Assembly (NCBI GenBank): GCA_946486465.1
Contig: CAMLTY010000010.1
Coordinates: 1 to 33,928, forward strand
Reading direction: 5' to 3'
Origin: an uncultured Mycoplasmatota bacterium
GTDB lineage: Bacteria; Bacillota_I; Bacilli_A; RF39; UBA660
Length of the DNA stretch: 33,928 nucleotides
Both the position numbers and the translations under genes were made by a program. Numbering within the stretch: the stretch's first letter is position 1; each line of letters opens with the position of its first letter. The notes under the pieces were generated by a model that worked only from the letters and a program-made list of their open reading frames with translations, did no database searches and was not told where the DNA came from. Below, piece by piece: positions 8,026-12,804 of the stretch.

Positions 8026-9291
8026 GTGATTCAAATGAAAGAGATTAAAAGAGATATCTATCTAAATAAATTAATAGATAGAAAAGAAAATGATATGATA
8101 AAAGTAATCACAGGTATAAGAAGATGTGGTAAATCCTACTTAATGGATCCTATTTATAAAAATTATTTATTAAGTACTGGAGTGAAAGAAGATCATATTA
8201 TTAAATTAGAATTAGATTCTGTTGAAAATGAAGAATATTTAGATAGACATAAATTATATAAGTATATAATGGGTCAAATAAAAGATGATAAAATGTATTA
8301 TATTTTACTTGATGAAATACAGAAAGTAGATGGTTTTGAAAGTGTTTTAAATAGCTTTTTAAGAAAGAAGAATTTAGATGTTTATGTAACTGGTAGTAAT
8401 TCAAAATTCTTATCAAGTGATATAATTACAGAGTTTAGAGGTAGAGGTGATGAAGTTAGAGTCTATCCTCTAACATTTAGAGAATATCTAACTGCTAGTT
8501 CTAAAAATGTTGATGAAGCTTTAAAAGAATATATTACTTATGGTGGAATGCCTTACATTTTATCAAGAAAAACATATGAAGAAAAGAGTAAATACTTAAA
8601 TAATTTATTTAATAATACCTATATAAATGATATAGTTGAAAGAAATAATATTCAAAAAGATGAAGTATTAGAATCTCTTATAAACGTATTAGCATCATCT
8701 GTTGGTTCCCTAACTAATCCCTTAAAATTGGAAAATACTTTTAAAAGTAAAGGTTTTAAAAATGTATCTGCTAAAACTATTAATACATATATAGATTATT
8801 TAATAGATGCTTTTATGATTACTAAAGCTTTAAGATATGATATTAAAGGTAAGAAGTACATCAATACTCCAAGTAAATATTATTTTACAGATATTGGTTT
8901 AAGAAATGTAAGACTTAACTTTAGACAACAAGAAGATAATCACTTAATGGAAAATATAATTTATAATGAACTATTAGTTCGTGGATTTAATGTCGATGTT
9001 GGTGTAGTAGAATATACTATGAAAGATAAAAATAATAAAAAAATGCATAAACAATTAGAAGTAGATTTTGTTTGTAATAAAGAAAGTAATAGATATTATA
9101 TACAATCAGCTTATGCTATTCCTACTAAAGAAAAAATGGAACAAGAAGAAAAATCATTAATTAAAATAGATGATTTCTTTAAAAGAATAATTATTGTTGA
9201 AAATGATATTAAACTATGGAGAAATGAAAAAGGAATTGTCATAATGAGCTTAAAACAATTCTTATTAGATGAAAATAGTCTAGATTTATAA
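8026..9291 (+). CDS. AAA_14 / DUF4143-type ATPase
   Basis: Walker A GIRRCGKS, Walker B-like YYILLDEIQ, VTGSNSKFL, FRGRGDEVRVYPLTFREY. Start may be GTG 8026 or ATG 8035. Confidence 0.88.
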   Translation: MIQMKEIKRDIYLNKLIDRKENDMIKVITGIRRCGKSYLMDPIYKNYLLSTGVKEDHIIKLELDSVENEEYLDRHKLYKYIMGQIKDDKMYYILLDEIQKVDGFESVLNSFLRKKNLDVYVTGSNSKFLSSDIITEFRGRGDEVRVYPLTFREYLTASSKNVDEALKEYITYGGMPYILSRKTYEEKSKYLNNLFNNTYINDIVERNNIQKDEVLESLINVLASSVGSLTNPLKLENTFKSKGFKNVSAKTINTYIDYLIDAFMITKALRYDIKGKKYINTPSKYYFTDIGLRNVRLNFRQQEDNHLMENIIYNELLVRGFNVDVGVVEYTMKDKNNKKMHKQLEVDFVCNKESNRYYIQSAYAIPTKEKMEQEEKSLIKIDDFFKRIIIVENDIKLWRNEKGIVIMSLKQFLLDENSLDL

Positions 9292-9304
9292 AAGGAGAAA
9301 CTCT

Positions 9305-10480
9305 ATGGAAAAAGTAATATTAATTAAATATGGAGAATTAACTACTAAAAAAGGTAATCGTAATTATTTTGTTAAAACTTTAACAAAAAATATTGAAAAT
9401 AAATTAAAAGACTTCAATGTTTTAATAGAAAAAGATTTGTCTAGAATGTATATACATTATAATGTAGAAGATGAAGAAGCTATTATTAATAAAATATATG
9501 AGATTTTTGGTATACATTCTTATCATATTGCCTATGTTACTAATAGTAACATGGATTCTATTAAAAATGAATTAATTAAAACAGTTAAATTACAAAACTT
9601 TAAAACGTTTAAAGTTGAAACTAAAAGAAGTGATAAATCTTTTCCTAAAACTAGTATGGAATTATCTAAAATATTTGGTGGTATAGTTTTAAAAAATAAG
9701 GATAATATTAAAGTAGATGTTAATAATCCAGAAGTTATTATTCATGTAGAAATAAGAGAAAAAAATACTTATATCTATTATAATGAATTTAATGGATTAG
9801 GTGGATATCCTAGTGGCATTCAAGGAAAAGGATTATTAATGTTAAGCGGAGGAATAGACTCTCCTGTAGCAGGATTCCTTGCTATGAAGCGAGGAATAAA
9901 AGTTGATGCTGTCTACTTTGAAGCGATACCTCATACTAGTTTAGAAGCTAGAGAAAAAGTAATAACTTTAGTAAATAAGCTAAAAGTTTATACAAATGAT
10001 ATGAATTTATATATCGTACCATTTACTAAAATACAAGAAGAAATCTATAAAAGCGTATCACCTAATTATGTTATTACTATTATGAGAAGAATGATGTATA
10101 GAATAATGTCCGCTTTATGTGAAAAATATAATGCTAAAGTTATAATTAATGGTGAATCTATTGGACAAGTTGCATCACAAACTTTAAATAGTATGTATGT
10201 AATAAATAATGTTACTAATTTACCTGTAATAAGACCAGTAGCATGCCTAGATAAATTAGAAATAATTGAAATCGCTAAAAAAATAGATACATATAATACA
10301 AGTATCTTGCCTTATGAAGATTGTTGTACAGTCTTTGTACCAAAACATCCTATAATTAATCCAAGTTTAGATGAGACTCTAAAAGAAGAAGAAAAAGTAA
10401 ACTATGAAGAGATTTTAAAAGAAACAATAGATAATACTTTTATCTATAAGAATGAAAAAAATTATGAAAATATTTTATAG
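9305..10480 (+). CDS. thiI: tRNA 4-thiouridine synthetase ThiI
   Basis: N-terminal ferredoxin-like/THUMP region, LLMLSGGIDSPVAGFLAMKRG PP-loop, C-terminal YEDCCTVFVPKHP. Confidence 0.95.
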   Translation: MEKVILIKYGELTTKKGNRNYFVKTLTKNIENKLKDFNVLIEKDLSRMYIHYNVEDEEAIINKIYEIFGIHSYHIAYVTNSNMDSIKNELIKTVKLQNFKTFKVETKRSDKSFPKTSMELSKIFGGIVLKNKDNIKVDVNNPEVIIHVEIREKNTYIYYNEFNGLGGYPSGIQGKGLLMLSGGIDSPVAGFLAMKRGIKVDAVYFEAIPHTSLEAREKVITLVNKLKVYTNDMNLYIVPFTKIQEEIYKSVSPNYVITIMRRMMYRIMSALCEKYNAKVIINGESIGQVASQTLNSMYVINNVTNLPVIRPVACLDKLEIIEIAKKIDTYNTSILPYEDCCTVFVPKHPIINPSLDETLKEEEKVNYEEILKETIDNTFIYKNEKNYENIL

Positions 10481-10503
10481 GTAAAAATTACCAGTAAAAA
10501 AAA

Positions 10504-10533
10504 TGTATGAAATTAAAAAAACTTCACATTCTA
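10504..10533 (+). promoter_or_regulatory. Candidate forespore (sigma-G-like) promoter for the SASP gene
   Basis: TGTATG (10504-10509), 17-nt spacer, CATTCTA (10527-10533), compared with the known sigma-G type TGMATA/CATACTA. Confidence 0.4.
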
Positions 10534-10550
10534 CTAGTGTAGGAGGTGAA
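10523..10550 (+). promoter_or_regulatory. Hairpin sequestering the SASP Shine-Dalgarno
   Basis: TTCAC-A-TTCTAC-TAGT-GTAGGA-G-GTGAA: 11 pairs including one G-U, one A/G mismatch. The SD aggaggtg (10541-10548) is in the 3' arm. Confidence 0.55.
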
Positions 10551-10554
10551 ACAA

Positions 10555-10770
10555 ATGAACAACAATATGAACACTGGTTCAATGAAAATGAGAGTTCCTG
10601 GTGCTAAACAAGCTATCGATAAAATGAAATATGAAATAGCTAATGAATTTGGTGTTAATTTAGGACCAGATGCTACTAGCCGTGCTAACGGTTCAGTTGG
10701 TGGTGAAATCACTAGACGTTTAGTACAAAATGGATTAAATCAAGTTAGCGGAAGTTATACTAATAAATAA
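10555..10770 (+). CDS. Alpha/beta-type small acid-soluble spore protein
   Basis: [33 protein letters not shown] is diagnostic. ATG 10555 preferred; the GTG at 10546 lies in the SD. Confidence 0.95.
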
Positions 10771-10786
10771 GTAATATAACTTAAGC

Positions 10787-10817
10787 GATAGGCCTATAAA
10801 GCCTATCTTTTATTTTA
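10787..10817 (+). terminator. Intrinsic terminator of the SASP gene
   Basis: GATAGGC / GCCTATC stem followed by ttttattttat. Confidence 0.8.
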
Positions 10818-10886
10818 TATAAAAAAATACTAGATTACTTTTATATTATTTGTTATACTATACATAAAGATAAGGTGTTGATTATA

Positions 10887-11549
10887 ATGAAAAGGTTTAA
10901 CAATAGAAAAAAGATTACTAAAGAAAAATTAGAAGAATATAATTTCAAAGAAGTAGCACTAACTAAAATGGCTAAAAGACAACTGTTAGTAACATTATTT
11001 TCAATATTAGGAGTAACTATAATTTCATTAGGAAGTGCTTATGCCGTCTTTACGTCAATATCAAGATCTGCTGATTATAATGTTATAAAAGTAGGAACTT
11101 TAAATATAGATTTTGGTGAATCAACTAACACAATAAAGTTAAATGGAGAATATCCAATGAGCGATGAAGAAGGAGTAAAATTAACACCATATACATTTAC
11201 AATAACAAATACAGGAACACTAGCAGCAGATTATGAAATATTTATACAAGATGACACTGATATGATAAATAAAGAAGGCTGTGGCAATAATCAATTAAAT
11301 AAAGATTATATAAGATATAAACTAGATACAGGAGAACCTACAAATCTTTCTAGTATAGAAGAGTCTGATTATAAAATTGCTACAGGTTCGCTTGAAGCCG
11401 GAAAAAGTGCAACTTATACTCTATATGTATGGATAAGAGAAGGAGTAGGAAACGATGTATTAAATAAACACTATCACGGCAAGATTGTGGTTAATGGAGT
11501 AAATAGCCAAGAAGAGACAACAAATAGTGAAGAAACAATTAATAATTAA
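10887..11549 (+). CDS. TasA/CalY-like secreted protein with SipW-type signal peptide
   Basis: LLVTLFSILGVTIISLGSAYAVFTSISRSADYNVIKVGTLNIDF, then a beta-sandwich FTITNTGTLAADYEIFI. ATG 10887 preferred over 10875. Confidence 0.65.
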   Translation: MKRFNNRKKITKEKLEEYNFKEVALTKMAKRQLLVTLFSILGVTIISLGSAYAVFTSISRSADYNVIKVGTLNIDFGESTNTIKLNGEYPMSDEEGVKLTPYTFTITNTGTLAADYEIFIQDDTDMINKEGCGNNQLNKDYIRYKLDTGEPTNLSSIEESDYKIATGSLEAGKSATYTLYVWIREGVGNDVLNKHYHGKIVVNGVNSQEETTNSEETINN

Positions 11550-11619
11550 CAATCACCTTATAAAAAACAATTGTCCTTTTTCAGATATTATTATATAATA
11601 AGCAAAAGGAGAGATAATT

Positions 11620-12804
11620 ATGATATTATTAGCTGTTAATTCTGGTAGTAGCACTCTTAAATTTAGGCTTTATGATATGCCAAGTGAAAAAGTAATTACA
11701 AAAGGAAGTTTTGAAAGAATTGGTTTATCTGATAGTGACTATACTATTAGAGTTAATGATGAAAAAATCTATAAGAAAGAGAAAATTGAAAGTCATGAGA
11801 AAGCTGTTAATATTTTATTAACAGAACTTGTGGAAAAAGGTATTGTTAAGAAACTAGATGAAATTAAAGCTGTTGGACATCGTGTTGTTCATGGAGGCGT
11901 TTTATATTCTCACTCTGTTGTTATTACAGAAAGAGTTCTAGAAGAAATAGAAAGAATAAAAGACCTAGCACCTCTTCATAATCCTGCTGCTATAGTTGGT
12001 ATTAAAGCTTTCTCTAAAGCTATACCTAATGCCACTATGGTTGCTTGTTTTGATACAGCTTTTCATCAAACTATTGAGGAAAAAGAATTTTTATATTCAG
12101 TACCTTATGAATGGTATGTTAAATATGATGTTAGAAAGTATGGTTTTCATGGCTTGTCTCACCAATATATAACAACTAGAATGAAAGATATATTAGGTAA
12201 AGATGGTAATTTAATTATCTGTCATATTGGAAATGGTGCTAGTATATCTGCTGTTAAAGAAGGTAAATGTATCGCTACATCTATGGGATTTACTCCTAAT
12301 GCTGGTATTATGATGGGAACACGTAGTGGTGATATAGACTATAGTATTATAGGCTACATTATGAAAAAAACTGGAATGTCTTATGATGAAGTAGATAACT
12401 TATTAAATAAAAAGAGTGGCCTTGAAGGTATTGCTGGTATGAGTGACTTAAGAGATATAGATAGAGCCTTTATTGCTAAAGATAGTAAAGTAGTTCTTGC
12501 TATAGATATGTATACTGAACGTATTGCCGAATATATCGCTAAATACTTCTTAAAACTAGGTAAAGTAGATGCTATTATCTTTACAGCAGGTGGTGGAGAG
12601 AATGATCCTATTATAAGAAAAGAAGTACTTAATAAATTAAAACCACTTGGTGTAGAAGTAGATGAGAAACTAAATGAAGAAACAATTGTTAGAAAAGATA
12701 AAGAAGGATTAATTACTACTAAAAAATCTTCTATTGCTAGTTATGTGTTAGCGACAGATGAAGAACTTGTAATTGCTAAAGATACATATAATTTATCTAA
12801 ATAA
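11620..12804 (+). CDS. ackA: Acetate kinase, paralog 1
   Basis: AVNSGSSTLKFRLYD, GHRVVHGG, CFDTAFHQT, GFHGLSHQY, GTRSGDID motifs. Confidence 0.95.
   Translation: MILLAVNSGSSTLKFRLYDMPSEKVITKGSFERIGLSDSDYTIRVNDEKIYKKEKIESHEKAVNILLTELVEKGIVKKLDEIKAVGHRVVHGGVLYSHSVVITERVLEEIERIKDLAPLHNPAAIVGIKAFSKAIPNATMVACFDTAFHQTIEEKEFLYSVPYEWYVKYDVRKYGFHGLSHQYITTRMKDILGKDGNLIICHIGNGASISAVKEGKCIATSMGFTPNAGIMMGTRSGDIDYSIIGYIMKKTGMSYDEVDNLLNKKSGLEGIAGMSDLRDIDRAFIAKDSKVVLAIDMYTERIAEYIAKYFLKLGKVDAIIFTAGGGENDPIIRKEVLNKLKPLGVEVDEKLNEETIVRKDKEGLITTKKSSIASYVLATDEELVIAKDTYNLSK

Follow-up and report, generated by a model that had tools for sequence, protein, structure and literature searches.

The window, i.e., the whole stretch of 33,928 nt that was analyzed, contains a gene for an alpha/beta-type small acid-soluble spore protein (SASP) downstream of the housekeeping gene thiI. 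SASPs are abundant spore proteins. The two genes are separated by only 74 nt, from the thiI stop codon (10478-10480) to the ATG of the SASP gene at 10555, and this interval contains a candidate sigma-G promoter and a hairpin that includes the Shine-Dalgarno (SD) sequence. In order along the DNA the features are:

9305-10480, forward strand: thiI, encoding tRNA uracil 4-sulfurtransferase, the housekeeping gene 5' of the SASP gene (TIGR00342, 384 bits versus a cut-off of 264.5)
10488-10493, forward strand: conserved element TTACCA, 17 nt upstream of the -35 element, half of the dyad GGTAAAAATTACC (dyad at 10480-10492)
10505-10509, forward strand: sigma-G-like -35 element GTATG (from the sequence; relatives share the geometry)
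10523-10534, forward strand: 5' arm of the hairpin, TTCAC-A-TTCTAC (from the fold and the swap tests), expected to be missing from the sigma-G transcript
10527-10533, forward strand: sigma-G-like -10 element CATTCTA, within the 5' arm (from the sequence and relatives)
10539-10541, forward strand: predicted sigma-G start region, 6-8 nt past the -10 element, as judged from sigma-70-family geometry
10539-10550, forward strand: 3' arm of the hairpin, GTAGGA-G-GTGAA, which contains the SD (from the fold and the opening cost)
10542-10546, forward strand: SD core GGAGG, within AGGAGGTGA (from the sequence)
10555-10770, forward strand: alpha/beta-type SASP, 71 aa (PF00269, E-value 7.8e-19; translation)
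10787-10817, forward strand: intrinsic terminator-like site 3' of the SASP gene, a stem with a T-rich tail (from the terminator scan)

The profile match of the SASP to PF00269 exceeds the curated cut-off. A preliminary description of the locus had stated that no convincing terminator lies between thiI and the SASP gene. The terminator scan agrees, it yielded no site in this interval and the next one, at 10787-10807, is located behind the SASP gene. Terminator-like sites between the two genes are also scarce in relatives, with 1 of 202 leaders and, in a second set, 4 of 29. The product of the gene after the SASP gene (10887-11549) has a hydrophobic segment at its N-terminus, resembles TasA/camelysin-type proteins by eye, and has no NCBIfam match.

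The hairpin spans 10523-10550, has the loop TAGT (10535-10538), and is exactly the structure that is obtained when the RNA of 10490-10570 is folded (-11.8 kcal/mol). The earlier proposal that the SD is locked in this hairpin holds for four of the five GGAGG bases, which are paired, but not for G10545, which is an unpaired internal mismatch. By computation, the SD is thus buried in a helix of the longer transcript, as would characterize a read-through lock of a ribosome binding site (RBS), and opening of GGAGG costs 8.1 kcal/mol in the read-through context versus 0.5 kcal/mol in a short leader that starts 4 nt before GGAGG. The hairpin starts 43 nt past the thiI stop codon, and ribosomes that terminate at this codon should therefore stop short of it. 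Taken alone, the window hairpin is a single sequence moderately above chance (z-score -1.83; 9 of 200 shuffled sequences fold equally well) and proves nothing by itself. It is rather the comparison across leaders, described below, that makes the case. An Rfam search of window positions 9000-12000 with E-values up to 1 gave one sub-threshold match, which lies elsewhere, and no family at gathering score.

A sigma-G promoter was defined by the motifs GNATR and CATNNTA, a spacer of 17-18 nt, and the presence of SigG in the genome. With a spacer of 17 nt (10510-10526), the promoter in front of the SASP gene is near-perfect for sigma-G. Two sigma factors of the SigG family are encoded in the genome of the window (about 87% complete), with 378.5 and 375.7 bits both above the cut-off of NCBIfam NF006071 (372 bits) and both below that of the stricter TIGR02850. 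The two genes (L257 and L258, on G000:C25 and C45) have the same neighbouring genes, which could mean that the gene was duplicated or that the assembly (3.7% contamination) includes a second strain. A genome-wide scan with GNATR-N17-CATNNTA resulted in 49 matches versus 47 in the reversed control, and since there is no excess, the motif by itself carries no evidential weight. The preliminary description had placed a candidate forespore promoter across the 5' arm, and indeed the -10 element (10527-10533) is located inside the arm (10523-10534), likewise in relatives. The 5' strand of the hairpin is thus encoded in the promoter region of the gene itself, a further characteristic of a read-through lock. 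The gap between the -10 element and GGAGG is 5-13 nt in the thiI-linked SASP leaders with this promoter geometry, and with a start 6-8 nt past the -10 element the transcript should lack the 5' arm entirely or for the most part.

The window belongs to a bacterium of the order RF39, for members of which spore formation has been predicted to be possible (PMC10868615). A search of 288 genomes of this order yielded SASP genes in 154. thiI is upstream in 225 of 269 SASP leaders, 202 of which have a recognised promoter, and most share the promoter geometry. In the Bacillales, a SASP gene is downstream of thiI in 29 of the 30 thiI loci examined; one SASP query sequence served only to gather extra Bacillales loci. 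The arms of the hairpin have the form TTTCAC..GTGAAA in the group of the window, TGTACAC..GTGTACA or CCTTTTGTACA..TGTACAGGAGG elsewhere in the order, and CACCTTGACAC..GTGTCAGGAGGTG in Massilimicrobiota (L120). In Bacillales, including Bacillus timonensis (L123), there are either explicit anti-SD arms or a pair of arms, GCCATGTGTTTT..GAAAACACATGGC, that also covers the start codon. The pairing bases and the register vary among lineages, and the SD remains covered. Compensatory changes in the TTTCAC class include GTTCAC/GTGAAC (L186, L196), TTCTCAC/GTGAGAA (L062, L252), and ATTCAC/GTGAAT (L067), and two relatives from the same genus (L012, L019) have retained the outer stem only in part. Conservation upstream of SASP orthologs had been named as a check in the preliminary description, and covarying, SD-masking hairpins are in fact present at thiI-linked genes of the window's order, of Massilimicrobiota type, and of the Bacillales. 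Four genomes of the same genus (L034, L037, L038, L042) contain a second, truncated SASP copy after tandem repeats of CTGCAGTAAAA, which stand in the place of a promoter and an SD; this copy seems to be a duplicate in decay.

Upstream of the -35 element a further motif is conserved. TTWCCA (TTACCA or TTTCCA) is present at most 45 nt upstream of the -35 element in 175 of the 202 thiI-linked leaders, at a median distance of 17 nt, compared to 4.3% of control windows. In Bacillales, it was found in 25 of 39 thiI-linked leaders versus 3 of 35 other SASP copies. It may possibly be an activator site.

Column counts in a fixed register revealed only weak covariation, since leaders of the TGTACA class hardly vary in the 3' arm and lineages differ in register, and they were replaced by energy-based swaps of the arms. 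In the first swap test, among 62 non-redundant leaders, the exchange was limited to the 14 nt that precede the -10 element. With its own 5' flank a leader reached -10.82 kcal/mol, with a swapped one -7.75 kcal/mol (0 of 5000 permutations); exchange of these 14 nt costs 2-3 kcal/mol. In the second test the cut through the dereplicated leaders was placed 16 nt before GGAGG. The z-scores were -9.9 for thiI-linked leaders of the window's order and other Bacilli (n=40) and -8.8 for those of the Bacillales (n=30), compared to -0.4 for Bacillales SASP copies not behind thiI (n=35), which show no fit of their own arms. The median cost of SD opening in the read-through versus the short leader is 7.7 versus 0.6 kcal/mol (n=82), 6.9 versus 1.5 kcal/mol for the linked Bacillales genes (n=39), and 2.8 versus 1.1 kcal/mol for the other copies (n=35). 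The SD pairs with bases that precede the predicted start in 63 of 82 and 33 of 39 linked leaders versus 11 of 35 other copies, and its masking is absent from the minimum-energy fold in 15-23% of the linked leaders. The p values of these two comparisons, 3.6e-9 for the opening cost and 4e-6 for the pairing (Fisher), should not be leaned on in their exact size, since the permutation tests handle kinship by dereplication alone and SD strength and promoter position are not the same in linked and unlinked genes (just 5 of 35 unlinked copies have a recognised sigma-G promoter adjacent to the SD). The relation between lock strength and intergenic length is weak (Spearman p 0.24; short versus long p 0.045).

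The inverted repeat might instead act in the DNA, as an operator around the -10 element (e.g., TGTACAC-N9-GTGTACA) to which a dimeric regulator binds, thereby repressing or timing the sigma-G promoter. The near-perfect repeat that overlaps the -10 element in part of the order would suit such a site. However, sequence, length, and register of the arms vary by lineage while the SD is still covered, and in Bacillales the arm extends to the start codon. In addition, the sense strand gains more from its own arm than the complement does (p 0.0018 and 0.042), as expected relative to swapped controls if G-U pairs count, and this favours RNA over a DNA operator. We therefore regard an operator as very unlikely.

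A second alternative is that the hairpin belongs to the SASP mRNA itself, which would then begin before the 5' arm, and constantly damps its translation. An RBS hairpin of this kind exists in the leader of sigG of Bacillus subtilis, where the effect is 2-4-fold (PMC5942855). Against this stands the near-perfect match to a sigma-G promoter with its -10 element inside the arm, in the window as well as in relatives. It would also be odd to place a strong mask on the sole mRNA of abundant spore proteins, and we give constant damping very little credence. Highly improbable and already disfavoured is the reading that a strong SD (TAGGAGGTG) is by its nature complementary in part to a sigma-G -10 element (..CTA, CAC), with hairpins forming without selection: the conserved letters of promoter and SD do make up the CTA/TAG and CAC/GTG pairs, and swapped arms still reach about -8 to -13 kcal/mol, but own arms outdo swaps among leaders that share the same -10 and SD elements, compensatory changes occur beyond the fixed letters, and no own-arm fit is seen at SASP copies that do not follow thiI.

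Most SASP copies that are not behind thiI lack the hairpin. The two most strongly locked copies of this control group are L271 and L320. For L271 the available upstream sequence has just 384 nt, too short for thiI to be visible. L320 is located behind a gene that we take to be fumC-like, as are L438, L446, and L445, and all four have SD-masking hairpins; these upstream genes were named by their C-terminal sequence. The lock thus seems to track the risk of read-through, and not thiI as such. A group of non-thiI Bacillales leaders (L268, L439, L440, L442, and similar ones) has a common stretch, GCTGGTGCAA-TTCCAGC-N-ACCCAACCA, just upstream of the SASP gene. Searches of L268, L439, and L346 against Rfam gave no match at gathering score.

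Taken together, a conserved cis-acting translational lock against read-through at the SASP gene, which is opened by a sigma-G start past the 5' arm, is by far the most probable explanation. In growing cells, RNA that presumably reads through from thiI would fold at 10523-10550 and bury the SD of the SASP gene, and the DNA-coating spore protein would not be made. In the forespore, sigma-G would initiate about 6-8 nt past the -10 element, which is part of the 5' arm, and the resulting message, without this arm, would have an open SD and be translated. The exact start probably lies within this short region. The likely benefit is that a DNA-binding protein is kept out of growing cells. All sequence-level predictions of the preliminary description held, and its interpretation seems to be supported. 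If the lock is real, a well-studied class of spore genes has an unrecognised second layer of control. It would also explain how the gene of a DNA-coating protein can be located directly behind a growth-phase gene without a terminator across the Bacilli, and it would mean that a promoter -10 element can double as a strand of an RNA switch outside of phages.

The lock at the SASP gene is well supported. As a general rule it could be supposed that at sigma-G genes behind housekeeping genes selection repeatedly builds an anti-SD or anti-start arm from the promoter itself, but we consider this rather doubtful. In the genome of the window, GTAT-N18/19-CANNNTA-N5-14-GGAGG has only two other matches, L354 (G000:C9:19844-19883) and L356 (G000:C17:15205-15244). 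Both also fold, and their -10 elements (CATAATA and CATATTA) pair with the start codon AUG. The locked SASP genes behind fumC-like genes would likewise fit such a rule. One downstream gene encodes a small protein of 51 aa and the other a coat-like protein. The coat-like gene was rejected as support for the rule, because in its relatives own and swapped arms are equal (-8.14 versus -8.09; 2171 of 5000). The other gene was found in just three of the genomes searched, all in the genus.

The logic of the SASP lock is already documented for phage T4 gene e, and a proposal of the same kind exists for sigG of B. subtilis. Among openly licensed papers, we found no report of a read-through hairpin at SASP genes or at thiI-sspA. 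Long early transcripts of T4 gene e, which encodes lysozyme, and also of soc, gene 49, and I-TevI, form an RBS hairpin. The late promoter of gene e overlaps the stretch from which the 5' strand is transcribed, so late transcripts are open; the measured effect of the hairpin is a 100-fold reduction of lysozyme synthesis (PMC3014915). The SASP gene resembles gene e in having a predicted RBS hairpin in a presumed longer transcript and its own promoter in the DNA of the 5' strand. It differs in that gene e is a phage gene with a phage late sigma factor and with a measured hairpin and effect, while here a bacterial spore gene and sigma-G are involved and the hairpin is a computed one. The leader hairpin of sigG likewise masks the RBS of a forespore gene, but in contrast to the SASP lock it sits in the gene's own mRNA and always damps, by 2-4-fold (PMC5942855). 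There is also a second hairpin at sigG (spoIIIG) of B. subtilis, which is located behind spoIIGA-sigE. As far as the proposal is summarized in PMC5942855, this hairpin was suggested to prevent read-through RNA from being translated and to be unable to form in transcripts from sigG's own promoter (Masuda, 1988, cited in PMC5942855). On that summary, the developmental system and the proposed logic are the same, and the sigG hairpin has 20 or more pairs, concerns a single regulator gene, and follows an operon that is itself a sporulation operon. The SASP lock, in contrast, has short arms, concerns a structural spore protein behind a housekeeping gene, and recurs across orders.
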